Shown here: one piece after another, positions 36,721 through 59,139 of the stretch | How positions within the stretch are numbered: position 1 is the stretch's first letter | How the letters are laid out: each line of letters starts with the position of its first letter | From: Planctomycetota bacterium | GTDB taxonomy: Bacteria; Planctomycetota; Planctomycetia; Pirellulales; Pirellulaceae | DNA length: 64,000 bases | Direction: 5' to 3' | Assembly (NCBI GenBank): GCA_014238905.1 | Contig: JABAAE010000001.1 | Coordinates: 356,712 to 420,711, forward strand | The notes under the pieces: model-generated | Told to the model about the DNA's origin: nothing | Seen by the model: only the letters and a program-made list of their open reading frames with translations | Databases searched by the model: none | Made by a program: the position numbers and the translations under genes

Positions 36721-37010
36721 TTGCCCTTTAGGCGGATGCTATTTGATCAATGCCTAATGTTATCGGCGGAGATGAATGTTAACTTTTGTAAACTTTGACG
36801 ATTAGTCTCGATTCGCGGTTTGGCAGAATTTTGTCCGTTGGAGAAAAAATCCGGTCGTAAATTCAAGATTCGCTGTCTGATTGGATCGAAAATGTCGATG
36901 CACTGGATTAAGTAGAGTTTTCCAAATGGGGAAATTCTTGCGCTAGCTTCGCCGTTTGTATGGATGCAATTCGGCGGGATCAAATGCATGCAGAGCAAGG
37001 AAGCAATTTC

Positions 37011-39434
37011 ATGCAAGCACCATCGCTACCCAACCTCGATTTAGAAGACACCCCACCGGTCAAAGGGAAAGGTCCGCTCAGTTCTGTCATGGGCTCGCTT
37101 GGCTGGCCAATCATGGTGGGACTGGTCGGTTTCTGGACATTTCTCTTCTTGGTGCAAAACGATTTCATCACCAACGAATTGCTGGTTCGTTATCTGACCG
37201 CTCATCCGGTCTCGTATGTTGCTACCGCCATGTTCTTCGTTGGCATGGCCGGATTAACGCTTAAACTGATGGGTGTTCTCTATCAGATAGCCGACCAGAA
37301 AAACATCGTACTCTCCCCGTTACAGGCACTGCCCCAGAGGGCTAACGGGAGCCGACGATTGTTGGATGAACTTGATGAAATGACACCCTCACAGCAATCC
37401 TCGTATATGGGGACGCGACTGCGGGATGCACTCGAATTTGTCGACAAAACAGAGTCCGCCAACGGCCTCGACGACGAATTGAAGTACCTGTCTGATCTGG
37501 ATGCCGGACGTCAACAAGAAAGCTATTCATTGACCCGTATCCTGATTTGGGCCATTCCCATGTTAGGGTTCCTGGGCACCGTCGTTGGCATCTCCGGAGC
37601 TTTGGGCAGTCTGAGCGTAGCCTCCGATTTCGAGATCATGTTAGCTGGCCTTCGGGACAAGCTCTACGTCGCCTTTGACACGACTGCGTTGGCCTTGACG
37701 CTTTCGATCGTACTGATGTTTGTTCAATTTATTGTCAACCGAATAGAGACCCAATACCTCTCCGCTGTCGATGACGCCGCTGCCGATCAACTGATCGGAC
37801 GATTCGAGACATTTGGCACCAACCGGGACCCCTATTTAGCGTCTGTAGAAAACATGTCCCGACAAGTCCTGGGCGGCATGGCAGATATCAGCCAACAACA
37901 GGCGCAAGCCTGGCAGTCTGGACTCGACCAAGTCCGCGATACGACCGCGGGTGTCCTCGACCGATTTGCCGAAGTTATGGCCAGTCGATTGGCCGAACAC
38001 CTTGATCCTATCATGGACGAAATGGGGTCCTCTGTCCGGAACGCTGTCGCGGATTCACAACACATCATGGACAACCACGCCAAAAAGCTACAGCAGGCGA
38101 TGGAAGATTCCGTGGGTTTGATTGAAGCTCGAAATCTCCGCCTTGTTGAATTGATGGGCAAGCAGTCGTTGGGATTCGAAGAGTTACTTGAATCGCAGTC
38201 GAAGGTTCTCAAAGGGGCCATCGACCATTCCGACAACGTCGTGGCCGGTCACATGGTCAAGCTTGATCATTCCCTCGAAAAATCCCTTCACGTCATGGAA
38301 AACGCCAACATTTTCATGGAGAACCAGTCTGAAAAACTCCATGAAGTCGTTACAGTTTCTTCGAAGATGATGGAGCAACATGCCAGAAAAATCAGTGATG
38401 CCGTCACCCGCAGTGAGGAAATTGTTGATAAGCGACAGGAGACCATTGCTCAAACGCAAGAATCAATGCTGAGAGCGCAGACCCAGCAGTCGATGGCGAT
38501 TTCCCAATTTACAGAACGACTTGAGGTTCTGCAGGAGACAGTCGATCAGGCTCGATCTCTTGAACAAATGCAGGTCACCCTGCAACAAACGATAGAGGAT
38601 TTATCGCATTCGGATTCCTTGATTCACGAAATCAAGGGCATGTCCAAGGTGATCAAAGAACAGGTCACCAAATCTGATTTGCGGCATCAAGACAGTGCTG
38701 AGGCGATCACATCTCAAGCAAGAAAGTCGATGGAACAAATCCAGTCCTACTTTGAAGAAAATGCGAAAACACTGTCTGAATATCAAGTTCGGCAGGAACA
38801 ACTGATCACCAGCGTGCTCGAAGCGAAACTTTCGTTGGATACTGACAACATTGTCAATTCTCTGGACAATCACTCGGCCACCACGAGCCAAAGCATCCGT
38901 GTCATCGAAAACAATTTTGAATTGCTGGGAGAGCAAATCCATGCCAAATTTCAATCTCTAGACGAATTAGGTCGAGATTTGAGCCGCTCGATCAACCTGG
39001 AGTCGCCGGTCGCAGACTTGAAAAATGCACTAACGTTTGGGCTCGAGCAAATACATCAAGCCGTCTCAAACCAGGGTGATTCCCAAGCAGTCGAAGATAA
39101 ACTGAAGGAGATTCAGGTGGCGTTACAAGCTCCCACTCCGCATCAGCAACAATTCCTGGAACAACAGCGGCAAACCATCGAAAACCAGACAGACTTACTG
39201 GATTTCTGCCAGACCATTGAGGTCAATAACCGATCGGCTTTCCTCGAATCTTCCAAGCAGATTCTAACTCAGCACGCCGAGGCAGCATCCAAAGCGGTTC
39301 AGCTAGAAGAAACCGTCCGCGAATTGGCATTCTCGGTAAATCTTTTGAATCAGTCTTTGACCAAGCACGCCAACGACGCTGCGGTTTCCACCATGAAGTT
39401 CAGAGAACCTGATATCCCGAAACGAGTCGGATGA
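37011..39434 (+). CDS. MotA/TolQ/ExbB-type proton channel with very long coiled-coil tail
   Basis: An 807-residue protein from ATG 37011, which has AAGGAAG seven bases upstream; the frame is open from 36960. Counted from 36960, membrane helices are at about 47-66, 84-108, 191-213 and 237-260. The third helix contains GFLGTVVGISGAL, and the fourth AFDTTALALTLSIVLMF; these are the channel-lining motifs of the MotA/TolQ/ExbB family. From about residue 300 to the end it is a nearly continuous cytoplasmic coiled coil rich in Gln, Glu and Ser. A channel with such a tail recalls ZorA, but the operon has none of the Zorya effector genes. The next gene overlaps by four bases (ATGA), so the products are made together. 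Confidence 0.88.
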   Translation: MQAPSLPNLDLEDTPPVKGKGPLSSVMGSLGWPIMVGLVGFWTFLFLVQNDFITNELLVRYLTAHPVSYVATAMFFVGMAGLTLKLMGVLYQIADQKNIVLSPLQALPQRANGSRRLLDELDEMTPSQQSSYMGTRLRDALEFVDKTESANGLDDELKYLSDLDAGRQQESYSLTRILIWAIPMLGFLGTVVGISGALGSLSVASDFEIMLAGLRDKLYVAFDTTALALTLSIVLMFVQFIVNRIETQYLSAVDDAAADQLIGRFETFGTNRDPYLASVENMSRQVLGGMADISQQQAQAWQSGLDQVRDTTAGVLDRFAEVMASRLAEHLDPIMDEMGSSVRNAVADSQHIMDNHAKKLQQAMEDSVGLIEARNLRLVELMGKQSLGFEELLESQSKVLKGAIDHSDNVVAGHMVKLDHSLEKSLHVMENANIFMENQSEKLHEVVTVSSKMMEQHARKISDAVTRSEEIVDKRQETIAQTQESMLRAQTQQSMAISQFTERLEVLQETVDQARSLEQMQVTLQQTIEDLSHSDSLIHEIKGMSKVIKEQVTKSDLRHQDSAEAITSQARKSMEQIQSYFEENAKTLSEYQVRQEQLITSVLEAKLSLDTDNIVNSLDNHSATTSQSIRVIENNFELLGEQIHAKFQSLDELGRDLSRSINLESPVADLKNALTFGLEQIHQAVSNQGDSQAVEDKLKEIQVALQAPTPHQQQFLEQQRQTIENQTDLLDFCQTIEVNNRSAFLESSKQILTQHAEAASKAVQLEETVRELAFSVNLLNQSLTKHANDAAVSTMKFREPDIPKRVG

Positions 39435-41362
39435 CCCGAAGATTGTCACGCCATGATGAAACGGCCCCTACGCTGTTTCCTTTCCTTGCAGTATTAATCT
39501 GCACGATGGGCGCCATTATCGTCCTCTTGGTGCTAGTGGTGAAACGCGCCGATGTTCAAGCTCATCGGGAGCGGGAGATCAAACAGGAGAAAATGGGAGA
39601 GCACCAACTCGCCGCAAAAGACAAATTAGCGGTAATCGAAAATCGAGTCGAACTGATGAGCGGGCTCCGGCCTGACCTGAAAAACAGGCTGGGAACCCAC
39701 CGCACTCTTGCCGGCCACCTGGTTGACCACATTACCCGTTTACAACAAGAACTCGATTTAAAGAAAAATGAACTGGAATCGCTTTCAAATTCCAAGGCAA
39801 AAGCCAATCAACCCGAATCTGAAGCGAAAATAGCTGAGCTGCGGACCAAGGTGACCAAGGCAAAGGAAAACTTGGCGGCCCAAAAAAAAGAGCTCGTTGG
39901 ACGGAAAAAATCGTACGCAATCGTTCCTCGATCTGGACCTGGCAACGGCACCTTTCGTCGACCGATTTATATTGAGTGTACCGAGAACGGAGTCACACTT
40001 CAGCCCTACAAAATCACTTTGACAGCTGCCGATTTCCCAACTCCTCTCGGAAGCGGAAATCCACTGGACGTAGCGTTATTACTGATTCGTGATTATTGGA
40101 ATCAAATCGATCCTGACCAGAAGAACGGCCAACCCTATCCTCTTTTCATTGTCCGTCCGAGTGGGCCCAAGTCTTTCGCAGCAGCTCGCAAGGCCATGAA
40201 ATCCTGGATTGACGAATTTGGGTATGAACTGGTCACCTCTGAGGTGAAACTTCAATTTCCCACTGCGGATAAACAATTCCAGCAGAGACTGATAACGGCA
40301 ATTGAACAGGCCAAGAGAACGCAAATGCTCCGATTGGCAACAGCCAATCGGAATCAGGCTCTTCAGAGCATTCGACGTCTTGAGGGCGCTCCAAACTTTT
40401 CGAGCTCATCAGCGGGCCTCAGTAACGCCAGTGGTCGGGGAAAGGTCTCCGGTGGCTACCGAGCATCGCCGATTACCGGAGGATTTGTTCAAGATCCTGA
40501 GTATGCCAGACCCTCTAACACCCAATTTACAAGCCAAACCTCAGACAAGGCATCCGCAATCCCTGCGGGCTCAAGTCAAAGTGGGTTGCCTAAAATCATC
40601 ACCCTCAGCAAAAAAAAGAGTGGGCAGGAAAAAAACCATCGATCGTTAACCGATCTGGGGACCTTTGATGACCAGCATTCAACACCGGAAGAATCAACCG
40701 CTTCGTCTATCTCCAACCTGCCACCGTTTCGGAAATCCGGATTTCAAAAAACTTCAGCGGCATCCAAACAGGCAACAGGCGATGGTAGCGGGAAAAAGAC
40801 CAACACCAAGGACTCGGCCGGTGGCTTAACAAAAGCAGCCTTGCGCCCGCCCGTCAACAGCCAAACACCCAACCACTCGTCCTTTAACCCGGGTACAACC
40901 AATCAGGTTCCGCCAACTTCCAGCGATCAGAACAATCCATCAAGCGGAGGAAATCCCAGTGCTGACCAGAAGTCCGGAACCAACTCGTCAAACCCGTCCG
41001 GCAGTCCGGCCAAGCAAAGCCTCGCCAAAACTCGGGGGGTGAATTGGGCGCTTCCATCCAAAGCAACCAACGCCATCCAGGTGCGAAAACCAATCAAGGT
41101 ACTCGTCGGGGAAAAAGGGGTCCAAATCATTGAACTGGGCAAGGGCATCAAGGAAATTCCATTCCGTGGCGAAACGGCCACGGCCTTGCCGATGTTGGTG
41201 GAACAGGTTTGGAAACACATTGATGCCTGGGGCATTGCGGGGGTTAACTCGTACTGGAAACCGGACTTACACATGTACGTCTCGCCCGGGGCAGACAAGC
41301 GTTTTGAAGATCTAAAGACGTTGCTATCAGGCAGCGGACTGGATGTCAGGAGGATTCAATGA
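39431..41362 (+). CDS. Single-pass coiled-coil stator-like protein lacking the channel aspartate
   Basis: A 643-residue protein. One membrane helix lies at 15-37 (FPFLAVLICTMGAIIVLLVL) after a short cytoplasmic N-terminus, the topology of ExbD, TolR and MotB. ExbD reads PFIDV at the start of its helix; this protein reads PFLAV, with Ala20 in place of the proton-carrying Asp. A coiled coil (about 40-165) and a globular part (about 165-290) follow, then 200 residues rich in Ser, Asn, Gln, Pro and Gly that are probably disordered. A C-terminal domain (about 540-643) begins near RGVNWALPSK. No OmpA-like peptidoglycan-binding motif was recognised. It overlaps both neighbours by four bases. Confidence 0.82.
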   Translation: MTRRLSRHDETAPTLFPFLAVLICTMGAIIVLLVLVVKRADVQAHREREIKQEKMGEHQLAAKDKLAVIENRVELMSGLRPDLKNRLGTHRTLAGHLVDHITRLQQELDLKKNELESLSNSKAKANQPESEAKIAELRTKVTKAKENLAAQKKELVGRKKSYAIVPRSGPGNGTFRRPIYIECTENGVTLQPYKITLTAADFPTPLGSGNPLDVALLLIRDYWNQIDPDQKNGQPYPLFIVRPSGPKSFAAARKAMKSWIDEFGYELVTSEVKLQFPTADKQFQQRLITAIEQAKRTQMLRLATANRNQALQSIRRLEGAPNFSSSSAGLSNASGRGKVSGGYRASPITGGFVQDPEYARPSNTQFTSQTSDKASAIPAGSSQSGLPKIITLSKKKSGQEKNHRSLTDLGTFDDQHSTPEESTASSISNLPPFRKSGFQKTSAASKQATGDGSGKKTNTKDSAGGLTKAALRPPVNSQTPNHSSFNPGTTNQVPPTSSDQNNPSSGGNPSADQKSGTNSSNPSGSPAKQSLAKTRGVNWALPSKATNAIQVRKPIKVLVGEKGVQIIELGKGIKEIPFRGETATALPMLVEQVWKHIDAWGIAGVNSYWKPDLHMYVSPGADKRFEDLKTLLSGSGLDVRRIQ

Positions 41363-42396
41363 AACATCATTCGAATCGACGACAGTCCAACAACTCCATG
41401 GAACCAGGGCAAGATGCCTTTCTGGACGTGGTCGCCAACCTAGTCGGAATCTTGATCATTCTGGTCGTCCTGATCGGCAGTCAGGCCAGATCAGTATGGG
41501 AACAAATGCTGGCGAAAGAAGACTTACAGGCCTCAGATCTTGTTCAGATAGAGGAAAAAACTGAGCTGGCGAACCTGACCGTCAATCGTCTGATTGAAGA
41601 AAACGAAACTTTGGAAAACGAAATCCAAAAGCAAAGCCAGCGGACAGAGCTCTTGACGGCTGACCGGGATCGGTTGCAGCTTGCCGTCCAAGCTGCTTCG
41701 CATTCGATTCAAGAACGAAAAAACGAGCTTTCCGAAAAGGAAAAAAAAGACGTTGAGCTGTCTGCGGTTGCCTTTAAACTGCAGATCGAATTGGATGAAT
41801 TGAGCAGCCAATCAACCGCGATAGATCATTCCATTGCCCCCAATGGCATTATCGAACATTTGCCCACACCGATTGCCAAAACCGTCTTTGGGGAAGAAGT
41901 TCATTTCCGTTTACAAAACGGCCAACTCGTTCACGTGCCGCTCGACGATTTGGTGGAATTAATGCGATCAGAATGGAATGTCAAAGCAAAAAAACTGACA
42001 CGAACTCCTTCCACCATCGAAACGGTGGGGCCAATCGACGCATTTCGTCTTCAGTATAAATTGGTCCTCAAAGAGCAAACACAACAAACTGAATACGGGA
42101 TAGCCAAGGCGATGACGCCAGCCTTGGAGAGATTCATCCTGATTCCTGTCCGGGAACAACTTGGAGAGCCATTTGAAAAAGCCATGCTACCTGGATCGAA
42201 ATTTACAACCCTGCTGGGTGATCTCGATCCTGCTCAGGTGACTGTGAGCATTTGGGTCTATCCGGACTCTTTTGGTTATTTTAATCGAATCAAGAAAAAC
42301 TTGTCAGACAGAGGGTTCCTTTGCGCCGGCTGGCCACTACCTGAAGGCCAACCCATCTCCGGTAGCCCTGAGGGATTCCGAACAGCGGCCCAATAA
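41359..42396 (+). CDS. Single-pass ExbD/MotB-like stator protein keeping the aspartate
   Basis: A 345-residue protein whose membrane helix (about 24-45) follows GQDAFLDVVANLVGILI. Asp23 in FLDVV lines up with the proton-carrying aspartate of ExbD (FIDVM). A coiled coil covers about 55-145, and a globular part follows (about 150-330: FGEEVHFRLQNGQLVHVPLDDL, later QVTVSIWVYPDSFGYF). The start overlaps the stop of the preceding gene (ATGA). With the channel protein and the alanine-bearing partner it should form one membrane complex. The role is not known. Confidence 0.82.
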   Translation: MKHHSNRRQSNNSMEPGQDAFLDVVANLVGILIILVVLIGSQARSVWEQMLAKEDLQASDLVQIEEKTELANLTVNRLIEENETLENEIQKQSQRTELLTADRDRLQLAVQAASHSIQERKNELSEKEKKDVELSAVAFKLQIELDELSSQSTAIDHSIAPNGIIEHLPTPIAKTVFGEEVHFRLQNGQLVHVPLDDLVELMRSEWNVKAKKLTRTPSTIETVGPIDAFRLQYKLVLKEQTQQTEYGIAKAMTPALERFILIPVREQLGEPFEKAMLPGSKFTTLLGDLDPAQVTVSIWVYPDSFGYFNRIKKNLSDRGFLCAGWPLPEGQPISGSPEGFRTAAQ

Positions 42397-54767: not shown

Positions 54768-55016
54768 TTAGCTATCCTTCAGTTGATTGTGACTTCCATC
54801 ACAATTTGGAGCATTCGCCGTCTTCTTGCAGGCACAAAAAAAGGCTGTTTTCGACTCATCGGCCTGAAAAACTGTCGGCGTGAATCCGGTTCCCTTATGG
54901 CGACCATCGCAAAACGGTTGGGCTTCGGACAGACCACAGGTGCAAAATGCATATTTTTTGCCTGCCTCTAAATCAACTTGGCAGGGCGAGGTGCCGGCTA
55001 CTTTGGGTTCATTCAT
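54768..55016 (-). CDS. Double CDGSH iron-sulfur protein
   Basis: An 82-residue protein with two complete CDGSH-type 2Fe-2S sites: Cys25, Cys27, Cys36 and His40, and Cys61, Cys63, Cys72 and His76 (CTCGLSEAQPFCDGRH and CACKKTANAPNCDGSH). Each cluster is held by three cysteines and one histidine, so it is redox- and pH-labile. There is no membrane anchor, unlike mitochondrial mitoNEET. Length and tandem layout are as in bacterial two-CDGSH proteins. It ends 177 bases upstream of the DUF1587-1595 gene on the same strand and is probably independent of it. Confidence 0.95.
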   Translation of the reverse strand: MNEPKVAGTSPCQVDLEAGKKYAFCTCGLSEAQPFCDGRHKGTGFTPTVFQADESKTAFFCACKKTANAPNCDGSHNQLKDS

Positions 55017-56534: not shown

Positions 56535-57284
56535 TCAATTCGGATTCGCCAGTTTCCATACCCCAAAGGAATAGCGAGGTCGTTTTTCATCACTGAAAAA
56601 CCACGGTTTTCCAGTCGCCGTTACCGAGTCCCTTAATCCCTCTGGCACCGACAGGCGATTCAGAAGGTCTTCCCGCAGCTCTCTTGCCTGAGTTGTCGCT
56701 CGCCTCCAAGACGAAATTCCCGGAGTGGCTGCCCACACGATAATATCGATTCGAAAGCCGGAATGGCCCGCCCGGACCATCGCCTGTCGAAAGACATCCG
56801 TAGCATTCTGGTCCACCATCGGACTGTCCTGCTTGAGCGGTTCAAAAAAGTCAAAGACAATCTGCCCAGTGGATTTTGGTAAGCTCTTTACTTCAACAAG
56901 TCCATCCATTTCAATCAGGAATCGCCGCAACATGTCCTTTTCGCGATCAACTACCCTCAGCTTGTTGGGATCGTCATCTGGACCGCTCCCCGAGTCGGCC
57001 GAGGGGGTGCTATCGCGATCAGCAACGATGTATAACGGTCCCGCCTGTTCCTTCTGAAAGGGATTCTGTGAAGCGCGTTTGGTGAACTGTCCTGGCAATC
57101 CAATTGCCCTCAACGACACCACAAAAGAACCCGTACCCGAGTAGAGGTTCGCTCCGGTCTGTTCATACGCGAGGGAATTCAGAACGATAAAAAACGCCAA
57201 AAGCGCTGTCATCGTATCTCCAAAGGAAATCAAGTAGGCATTACTTGCACCTGTTGGTGCTATTTTTTTTCTTTTTACCATCAT
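56535..57284 (-). CDS. MotB-like protein B with membrane aspartate
   Basis: A 249-residue protein with an excellent ribosome-binding site (AAGGAGG just before ATG 57284). The single membrane helix (about 17-39, NAYLISFGDTMTALLAFFIVL) has the MotB layout, with Asp23 at the position of the proton-carrying aspartate. The C-terminal half (about 125-249) resembles an OmpA-like domain: GQIVFDFFEPLKQDSPMVD then IDIIVWAATPG, ATTQARELREDLLNRL. The MotB peptidoglycan-binding residues are not clearly conserved. It follows the other MotB-like gene by 17 bases. No MotA-like gene is adjacent. Confidence 0.85.
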   Translation of the reverse strand: MMVKRKKIAPTGASNAYLISFGDTMTALLAFFIVLNSLAYEQTGANLYSGTGSFVVSLRAIGLPGQFTKRASQNPFQKEQAGPLYIVADRDSTPSADSGSGPDDDPNKLRVVDREKDMLRRFLIEMDGLVEVKSLPKSTGQIVFDFFEPLKQDSPMVDQNATDVFRQAMVRAGHSGFRIDIIVWAATPGISSWRRATTQARELREDLLNRLSVPEGLRDSVTATGKPWFFSDEKRPRYSFGVWKLANPN

Positions 57285-57301
57285 GCCCTCCTTTCTTTCG
57301 A

Positions 57302-57955
57302 TTACTGCAACAAGTGGTGCTCAATGATCGCACGCATTTTTTGCGGCTTGACATCTCCGATAATTCGCACGCCCATCTGGCCTGGCTTGACGCCATAGTT
57401 TTCAAAAATATGGTGGGAAAATGCGACCGCACGCTCCATCGCAGCATCCGTGGCGACTTCAAAAGTCACATGCATGGGAAGACGGTACATTTGCAACGCC
57501 AACATTTTTGCTTGTTGCTGGCCGAGAGAGTAGATCTCCCCGTTGGCGGAAACCATATGATAAAGATTCATTTCAAGTGCATACTGGTCTGCCAGATCCT
57601 TGAATTGATCGCCTTCCAGACCTGCCAACGATCCTGTGACTGACAAGGTGTTCGGAGATTTTTTGGTCGGTGGCATTTCGGAGCCCTGCAAACACATCCT
57701 AGCGGTCTTGGGCCGAATCCGCATGATAAAACTGTCTCTTTCCAATCCATCCGGCGGTTCACCTACAAGACCCGTCGACCCCGCACCACTAAACAGTGTT
57801 TTCTGAATTTGTTCAAACCGCTCTGGCTCAGTCGACGCAAATGTCAACAACAGAATAAAAAACGTCATTAGCAATGTGATGACATCACTATACGTCAGAA
57901 ACCACGCAGGAACTGAATCGAGTTTGGGTGGTGGTGCTGATCTTTCCTTAGCCAT
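57302..57955 (-). CDS. MotB-like protein A with membrane aspartate
   Basis: A 217-residue protein. The helix at about 16-40 (VPAWFLTYSDVITLLMTFFILLL) matches the MotB plug-plus-helix, with Asp24 as the proton carrier. The region just after (RFEQIQKTLFSG) is the MotB-type plug. The remaining 140 residues resemble a short OmpA-like fold (LGQQQAKMLALQMYRLPM, AFSHHIFENYGVKPGQMGVRIIGD). It is the first gene of a two-gene unit. It may work with a channel protein encoded elsewhere. Confidence 0.85.
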   Translation of the reverse strand: MAKERSAPPPKLDSVPAWFLTYSDVITLLMTFFILLLTFASTEPERFEQIQKTLFSGAGSTGLVGEPPDGLERDSFIMRIRPKTARMCLQGSEMPPTKKSPNTLSVTGSLAGLEGDQFKDLADQYALEMNLYHMVSANGEIYSLGQQQAKMLALQMYRLPMHVTFEVATDAAMERAVAFSHHIFENYGVKPGQMGVRIIGDVKPQKMRAIIEHHLLQ

Positions 57956-58506: not shown

Positions 58507-59139
58507 TCAATCGACTAACCCCATGCGGACTGCCCATATCGCCGCCTGGGTGCGATCAGTCGCATCGATCTTGCGCAGAATGTTTTGCACATGCTCCTTC
58601 ACCGTCTCAATACTGATCGTCAGCGAGACGCCAATTTCCCTATTGCTCAAACCGAGCGCGATATGCCGCAAGACTTGTGATTCCCGATTGGTTAAAGGAA
58701 TATCGTCGCGGGTGTTTTTTCTGACCGACATGGTCGCTTTCACGGTGCTGAGAAGCCCTTTTGGCTCCGCATCGCCTCCTTTTGCCACTCGGCGAATGGT
58801 GGCAATCAAATCACCCTCGGAGGCCCCTTTCAATGCATAATCCTTGGCACCCAGAGCAACCGCTCGTGCCACATAGGTTGGATTATCATAGGTCGAAAGA
58901 ACGACTACCTTGGTTTCCGGAGCATCAGATCGGAGCCGTGCCAAGGCTTGGATTCCATCCGCTTCCGGCATCCGAATGTCCATCAGGAGAACATCTGGCC
59001 GCTGAGCGATGGTCTTTGCCACCGCCTCCTCTCCATCACTCGCTTGAGCGACGACTTCAATCTCCGAATCCTCGAAAACACTCAGCAGGCCACTGCGAAC
59101 GACTTCATGGTCGTCGGCTATTAACACTTTGATCGACAT
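58507..59139 (-). CDS. NarL/FixJ-type response regulator
   Basis: A 210-residue two-component regulator. The receiver domain has Asp9-Asp10 (VLIADDHE), phosphoacceptor Asp54 (LLMDIRMP), the Thr/Ser switch (VVVLSTYDN) and the Lys in YALKG. The LuxR-type helix-turn-helix follows from about 145: LTNRESQVLRHIALGLSNREIGVSLTISIETVKEHVQNILRKI. All key residues are present, so it should be a phosphorylation-controlled DNA-binding regulator. Its histidine kinase is not in the window. It is divergent from the NtrC-type gene and they share 404 bases of control region. Confidence 0.95.
   Translation of the reverse strand: MSIKVLIADDHEVVRSGLLSVFEDSEIEVVAQASDGEEAVAKTIAQRPDVLLMDIRMPEADGIQALARLRSDAPETKVVVLSTYDNPTYVARAVALGAKDYALKGASEGDLIATIRRVAKGGDAEPKGLLSTVKATMSVRKNTRDDIPLTNRESQVLRHIALGLSNREIGVSLTISIETVKEHVQNILRKIDATDRTQAAIWAVRMGLVD

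Follow-up and report, generated by a model that had tools for sequence, protein, structure and literature searches.

Textbook flagellar motors are driven by stators whose B part consists of two identical copies of one protein. The one operon precedent that we found for a different arrangement is that of Aquifex aeolicus, whose stator operon has the order motA-motB1-motB2 (Takekawa et al. 2015, PMC4525482). MotB1 and MotB2 have each been fused to the periplasmic part from E. coli, and either chimera functions together with MotA in E. coli; the chimeras are Na+-dependent in this host, those measured having carried MotA-A225D. The N-terminal and membrane regions of the two proteins are 97% identical, whereas their periplasmic parts differ (PMC4525482). 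A comparable composition is described for the Myxococcus AglR-AglQ-AglS machine, in which a single MotA-like subunit is joined by two that are MotB-like and both carry the Asp. The same review lists the choice between homo- and heterodimers of AglQ and AglS as an open question, and for a 5:2 motor it predicts steps of 36 degrees and the passage of 10 ions per turn, 5 ions per turn being said to call for an entirely new model (PMC9389320). In titles and abstract openings we found no report of a planctomycete MotB pair, of which a full text may hold a mention.

The window considered here, that is, the whole stretch of 64,000 nucleotides that was analysed, carries such a pair in a planctomycete. 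We consider it reasonably probable that B1 and B2, the two proteins of the pair, both serve as B subunits in the only flagellar stator of the bacterium and form a heterodimer within a MotA pentamer. The features of the locus are as follows.

57302-57955, minus strand: motB1 (B1), 217 aa, first-position flagellar stator B subunit, assigned by MotB_plug and tree clade
57884-57886, minus strand: codon of B1 Asp24, predicted from sequence as the ion-binding Asp of the membrane helix
57833-57907, minus strand: B1 transmembrane helix, residues 17-41, in the AlphaFold model
57314-57595, minus strand: predicted B1 periplasmic OmpA-like domain, residues 121-214, from AlphaFold pLDDT and Foldseek
57286-57294, minus strand: Shine-Dalgarno-like AAGGAGGG in the B1-B2 gap, from sequence
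56535-57284, minus strand: motB2 (B2), 249 aa, second-position stator B subunit, assigned by MotB_plug and tree clade
57216-57218, minus strand: codon of B2 Asp23 (Asp22 from the second ATG), from sequence
56550-56873, minus strand: predicted B2 periplasmic OmpA-like domain, residues 138-245, from AlphaFold pLDDT and Foldseek
58507-59139, minus strand: LuxR-type response regulator upstream of the pair, from NCBIfam response regulators

The first-pass annotation had described two distinct MotB-like genes in tandem, each with an intact helix Asp, and this description holds: both open reading frames lie where they were placed, Asp24 of B1 and Asp23 of B2 are read in the sequence, and both proteins exceed the cut-off of 24 bits for Pfam MotB_plug (PF13677), B1 with 49.4 and B2 with 35.9 bits. 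They are the only PF13677 matches of the whole genome (6.15 Mb, 93.7% complete), and neither reaches the NCBIfam MotB equivalog cut-offs. The 17-base gap given for the two genes is correct when B2 is counted from its first ATG; counted from a second ATG at 57281, the gap is 20 bases, the protein has 248 aa and its Asp is number 22. AAGGAGGG fits this second ATG better than the first, and the alignment of B2 relatives begins at its Met. RNA structure in the gap was not significant (z 0.25). Elsewhere in the window, positions 54768-55016 encode a putative small CDGSH-like iron-sulfur protein, assigned by its motif.

The absence of a MotA-like gene beside the pair, and a channel encoded elsewhere, had also been claimed, and both points are borne out by the genome. 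Within the window, PF01618 is matched only by an ExbB/TolQ-like protein encoded some 17 kb from the pair, and a search beyond the locus found an orphan PomA-like motA in a flagellar cluster on another contig (C3), encoding a protein of 254 aa (L003:1390-2154). This motA is divergent from and about 0.8 kb from fliE, which is followed by fliF, fliG and fliI, with fliH and fliJ assigned by position only, and no motB lies beside it; the partner MotA and the flagellar rotor genes (fliE, fliF, fliG, fliI) are thus both present in the genome, on contig C3. The best NCBIfam match of the protein is PomA, at 250 bits and under the cut-off of 341, and its closest solved structure is PomA (PDB 8brd, E 8e-52). 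Its Thr160, Thr187 and Thr188 correspond to PomA T158, T185 and T186, which are required for motor function in Vibrio (PMC6677748).

The genome holds nine PF01618 matches in total. Since PF20560 (MotA_N) is too insensitive for PomA-like proteins, with matches in 46/199 genomes and the window's own not among them, MotA was detected instead by profiles built from sequences of this analysis. The C3 MotA reaches 353 bits with such a profile, which includes this very protein, and seven of the other eight PF01618 proteins, the window's own (L008) not being listed, reach 17.8 to 31.5 bits. ExbD-like neighbours accompany the PF01618 genes of five loci (L001, L002, L004, L005, L007), none was seen at L006, and the protein of L234 (contig C88), with a long tail and a single-helix neighbour, resembles the window's own 824-aa protein. 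By profile score, only one of the nine is of the flagellar MotA type; the genome thus lacks a second flagellar channel, and the refuting case named in the first-pass annotation, that the two MotBs are alternative partners of different channels, does not arise. The window's 824-aa ExbB/TolQ-like protein is itself followed by two single-helix proteins (39431-41362 and 41359-42396, with a four-base overlap), and this locus (36960-42396) is probably the other 'heterodimeric plug' of the earlier reader.

Because motA, B1 and B2 are consecutive in relatives of the same genus (G001, L012) and the same family (G009, L013), motA directly preceding the pair in both, and because a response regulator similar to that of the window sits upstream of motA-B1-B2 in L012 (blastn, window 58511-58698 against L012 141-328, 76% over 188 bases, 2e-35), motA probably left a former place between the response regulator and B1 in the window genome. 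By tblastn, no motA remnant was found in or upstream of the pair (best E 1.5 upstream and 0.07 in the whole window). Since the assembly is a draft in 96 contigs, an error in it could also account for the separation. The reading that suits the locus best is that of a flagellar stator operon whose first gene was lost to another place, and not that of an orphan plug.

The motA-B1-B2 arrangement is widespread within Planctomycetota. When named genomes were scanned with the B2 alignment, one of the two search patterns containing the B2 Asp, 47 loci were obtained; their names are those of planctomycetes, except for one genome labelled 'bacterium' only. The three genes stand in order in 43/47 (one with motA cut by the contig), and a contig edge cuts within B1 in three others (L044, L060, L073). 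In the last, from a Fuerstiella MAG (L057:5977-6732), a B2-type MotB adjoins flgB with neither B1 nor motA nearby; neither a B1 nor another MotB_plug gene turned up in this MAG, possibly a case of a lone B2 or of an incomplete genome. Many of the loci are close relatives, and the counts are not independent. Window repeats (L009, L010, L011, L079) and loci that are 100% identical to others (L032, L038, L084 and L085 to L012, L013, L072 and L060) were left out of the sequence sets compiled for comparison.

Of 199 Planctomycetota genomes sampled evenly, 104 gave MotB_plug matches: a tandem pair, with starts no more than 983 bases apart, is found in 37 of these, two separate MotBs in 4 and a single one in 63. 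As in the Aquifex aeolicus operon, one motA is followed by two motB in 35/37 tandem genomes, as it is in L012 and L013, the exceptions being the window genome itself and G090, where a contig end cuts the locus. One of the 63 single-MotB genomes (G232) has a pair cut by a contig edge; in the other 62, the best score is always with the single-copy MotB profile (30/62 in its training set, 32/62 not) and not with the B1 or B2 profiles. The second refuting case of the first-pass annotation, that either gene is always present alone in related genomes, does not arise either: neither B1 nor B2 occurs alone in these 62 genomes, and one lone B2 was seen, that of the Fuerstiella MAG. Of the tandem pairs behind motA, that of G103 (L147) scores as single-type MotBs, is not of the B1/B2 kind and is perhaps an independent duplication, and that of G171 (L155) is not clearly B1 or B2 by profile; both loci were kept out of the class profiles. 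Among other genomes of the same family or order, 18 gave a match and 19 gave none; in 17 of the 18, motA is followed by one ordinary MotB, and 15 have a fliL-like gene in the vicinity. In four genomes (G087, G108, G190 and G219; L227, L229, L231 and L233) a second MotB lies away from the motA-motB operon, and no motA was found in the stretch read around it.

With regard to ancestry, a tree of 108 chosen B rows, from which proteins of 190 aa or less were left out, places 44/45 B2s in one clade (SH-aLRT 97) and 43/44 B1s in another (SH-aLRT 89), with none of the 19 single MotBs inside either and L147 as the lone pair exception. A GxGSF motif after the helix occurs in 72/110 B2s, 0/107 B1s and 0/47 single MotBs. 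The B1 and B2 distances of 43 pairs correlate (r 0.77, with 0/2000 permutations as high), a correlation that is predicted by co-inheritance and may also come from shared species history alone. The two genes overlap in 35/111 pairs, 26 of them by exactly 4 bases, with a median gap of 4 (the copies L032, L038 and L084 being included in these spacings). From these sequence comparisons we infer that B1 and B2 arose from one old duplication and were retained as a pair. Unlike in Aquifex, the helices of the planctomycete B1 and B2 differ, the two form separate clades, and in part of the phylum the Asp of B2 is gone.

The fate of this Asp is asymmetric. It is kept in 108/108 readable first-position Bs (three more are cut before it) and in 47/47 single Bs, and it is present in 101/112 second-position Bs, the remaining 11/112 carrying Ala, Ser or Gly; L161, a copy of L137, and L169, which has no B gene, were left out of these counts. 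Asp-less B2s make up 8/37 in the 199-genome sample and are possibly undercounted, one search pattern having held the Asp and the Pfam plug model favouring it. Since the window pair has kept both Asp, it shows no asymmetry itself. Several independent losses were a first impression that was dropped, the trees needing only 1-2 changes: on the MotA tree the Asp-less loci form one group with 1 change (SH-aLRT 85, 10 rows, the Asp-less L091 being left out with its cut motA), and on the B2 tree there are 2 changes (11 rows). The loss therefore seems old, with one or two events, and kept across four family codes; all Asp-less B2s may come from a single event. In four comparisons within two genera, dN/dS is 0.12-0.21 for Asp-less B2s and 0.12-0.19 for B1s, and the Asp-less B2s compared are under purifying selection. 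No compensating substitution in MotA or B1 was recognisable beyond lineage-specific differences. Because PomB-D24N abolishes swimming and ion transport (PMC6677748), an Asp-less B2 should, by analogy, form no working motor as a homodimer. In a separate observation, Ala takes the place of PomA T185 in the MotAs of L139, L142, L146, L149, L153 and L157 (families f26 and f54), and their B subunits keep the Asp.

The AlphaFold models of B1 and B2, computed as monomers, each show a helix and a well-predicted alpha/beta periplasmic domain (B1 residues 121-210 at pLDDT 85-96, B2 residues 141-240 at 84-95); mean pLDDT is moderate (72.8 for B1, 70.7 for B2), with linkers largely near or below 50. Foldseek matched the B1 domain best to 5u1h (3.1e-5), with H. 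pylori MotB 3s02 at 1.6e-4, and the B2 domain best to 3td3 (1.7e-4), with MotS 9ljm at 3.6e-4. These models suggest that both periplasmic folds are OmpA-like; the OmpA-like C-terminal part that the first-pass annotation had seen is in this way supported by fold, with no Pfam OmpA domain match in B1 or B2. A GH[TA] motif is typical of OmpA-type peptidoglycan binding. It was found in 0/49 Planctomycetia B1s and 0/52 Planctomycetia B2s, and therefore the envelope anchoring of the Planctomycetia pair may differ from the usual one; the motif is a weak test of peptidoglycan binding, being present in just 25/47 single MotBs. With its PomA-like MotA, a plug helix with Asp and an OmpA-like periplasmic fold, the planctomycete system resembles PomA5PomB2 and MotA5MotB2, but it differs from them in that its B subunits come from two distinct genes, with no single-gene MotB, and in a Planctomycetia pair that lacks GH[TA].

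We propose that the B1-B2 heterodimer would form the central axle and plug within a pentamer of the PomA-like MotA, supplied from the flagellar cluster on the other contig; ions, probably Na+, would bind the plug-helix Asp and make the MotA ring turn, and the OmpA-like domains would hold the dimer in the cell envelope. The flagellar function, the heterodimer, the Na+ preference and the anchoring are what we infer for the pair. Because pair-operon MotAs keep Thr at the position of PomA T158 (103/103 rows, including the two repeats L169 of L003 and L161 of L137, against 27/44 single-operon MotAs), Na+ drive of the pair-operon stators is suggested by sequence. The putative heterodimeric plug of the first-pass annotation gains support from co-inheritance, from the separate clades and from an Asp loss in B2 only. 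What counts against a flagellar heterodimer is the lone B2 of L057 and two near-complete tandem genomes (G109, G191), with motA-B1-B2 and an Asp-less B2, in which FliG gave no match at E 0.001. The Aquifex MotBs, moreover, each work with MotA, and therefore homodimers are possible in such a system.

This last consideration leads to the hypothesis that two alternative homodimeric stators, MotA5-B1(2) and MotA5-B2(2), share one MotA and are swapped by load, ion or growth conditions. The Aquifex chimeras (PMC4525482) speak for it, and the Asp is intact in both proteins of the window, as it is in each of the 52 Planctomycetia B2s that were read, a set biased by the Asp-containing search pattern. 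Such an exchange nevertheless seems unlikely to us, given that the Asp-less B2s (11/112) should not conduct alone, yet those tested are under purifying selection, and that overlapping genes of one operon are ill-suited to conditional swapping. Rather unlikely as well is a working B1 homodimer to which B2 is added outside the channel as a scaffold, brake or FliL-like factor: this would account for the tolerated Asp loss in B2 and for the B2-specific GxGSF motif, but B2 retains the MotB-type helix, with the Asp in all but those few, and a separate FliL exists in 19/20 tandem genomes tested, the window genome included. B2 as a replacement of FliL is ruled out by the same comparison, FliL being found separately in 19/20 tandem against 8/20 single-MotB genomes with a Pfam model that seems to miss some planctomycete FliLs.

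A non-flagellar machine of the AglRQS or TolQR sort, serving for instance gliding or envelope transport, would be in keeping with the window, where none of the genes beside the pair was recognised as flagellar, and with the two MotB-like subunits that AglRQS likewise has. We regard it as very improbable, as MotA best matches PomA and adjoins the fliE-fliI cluster, FliG is found in 35/37 tandem genomes (112/199 overall), and the pair provides the genome's only MotB_plug genes; unlike the planctomycete pair, AglRQS is not flagellar, and its periplasmic parts are described as TolR-like (PMC9389320). The heteromeric stator MotA5-B1-B2 is therefore the explanation that we retain.

In a stator survey of 2025, the B subunit was taken to be whichever gene follows motA directly (PMC12505986), and because of this choice surveys of this kind would, it is suggested, miss B2. 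Models of rotary 5:2 stators assume two nominally identical B subunits with one ion site apiece. In the planctomycete stators the B subunits are distinguishable, some pairs having a single Asp, and each ion site could thus be mutated and tracked separately. It is conceivable, though doubtful for now, that flagella across much of Planctomycetota are powered by stators in which the heterodimer is obligatory (MotA5-B1-B2); if true, such stators would fall outside the current two-site models of the 5:2 motor.
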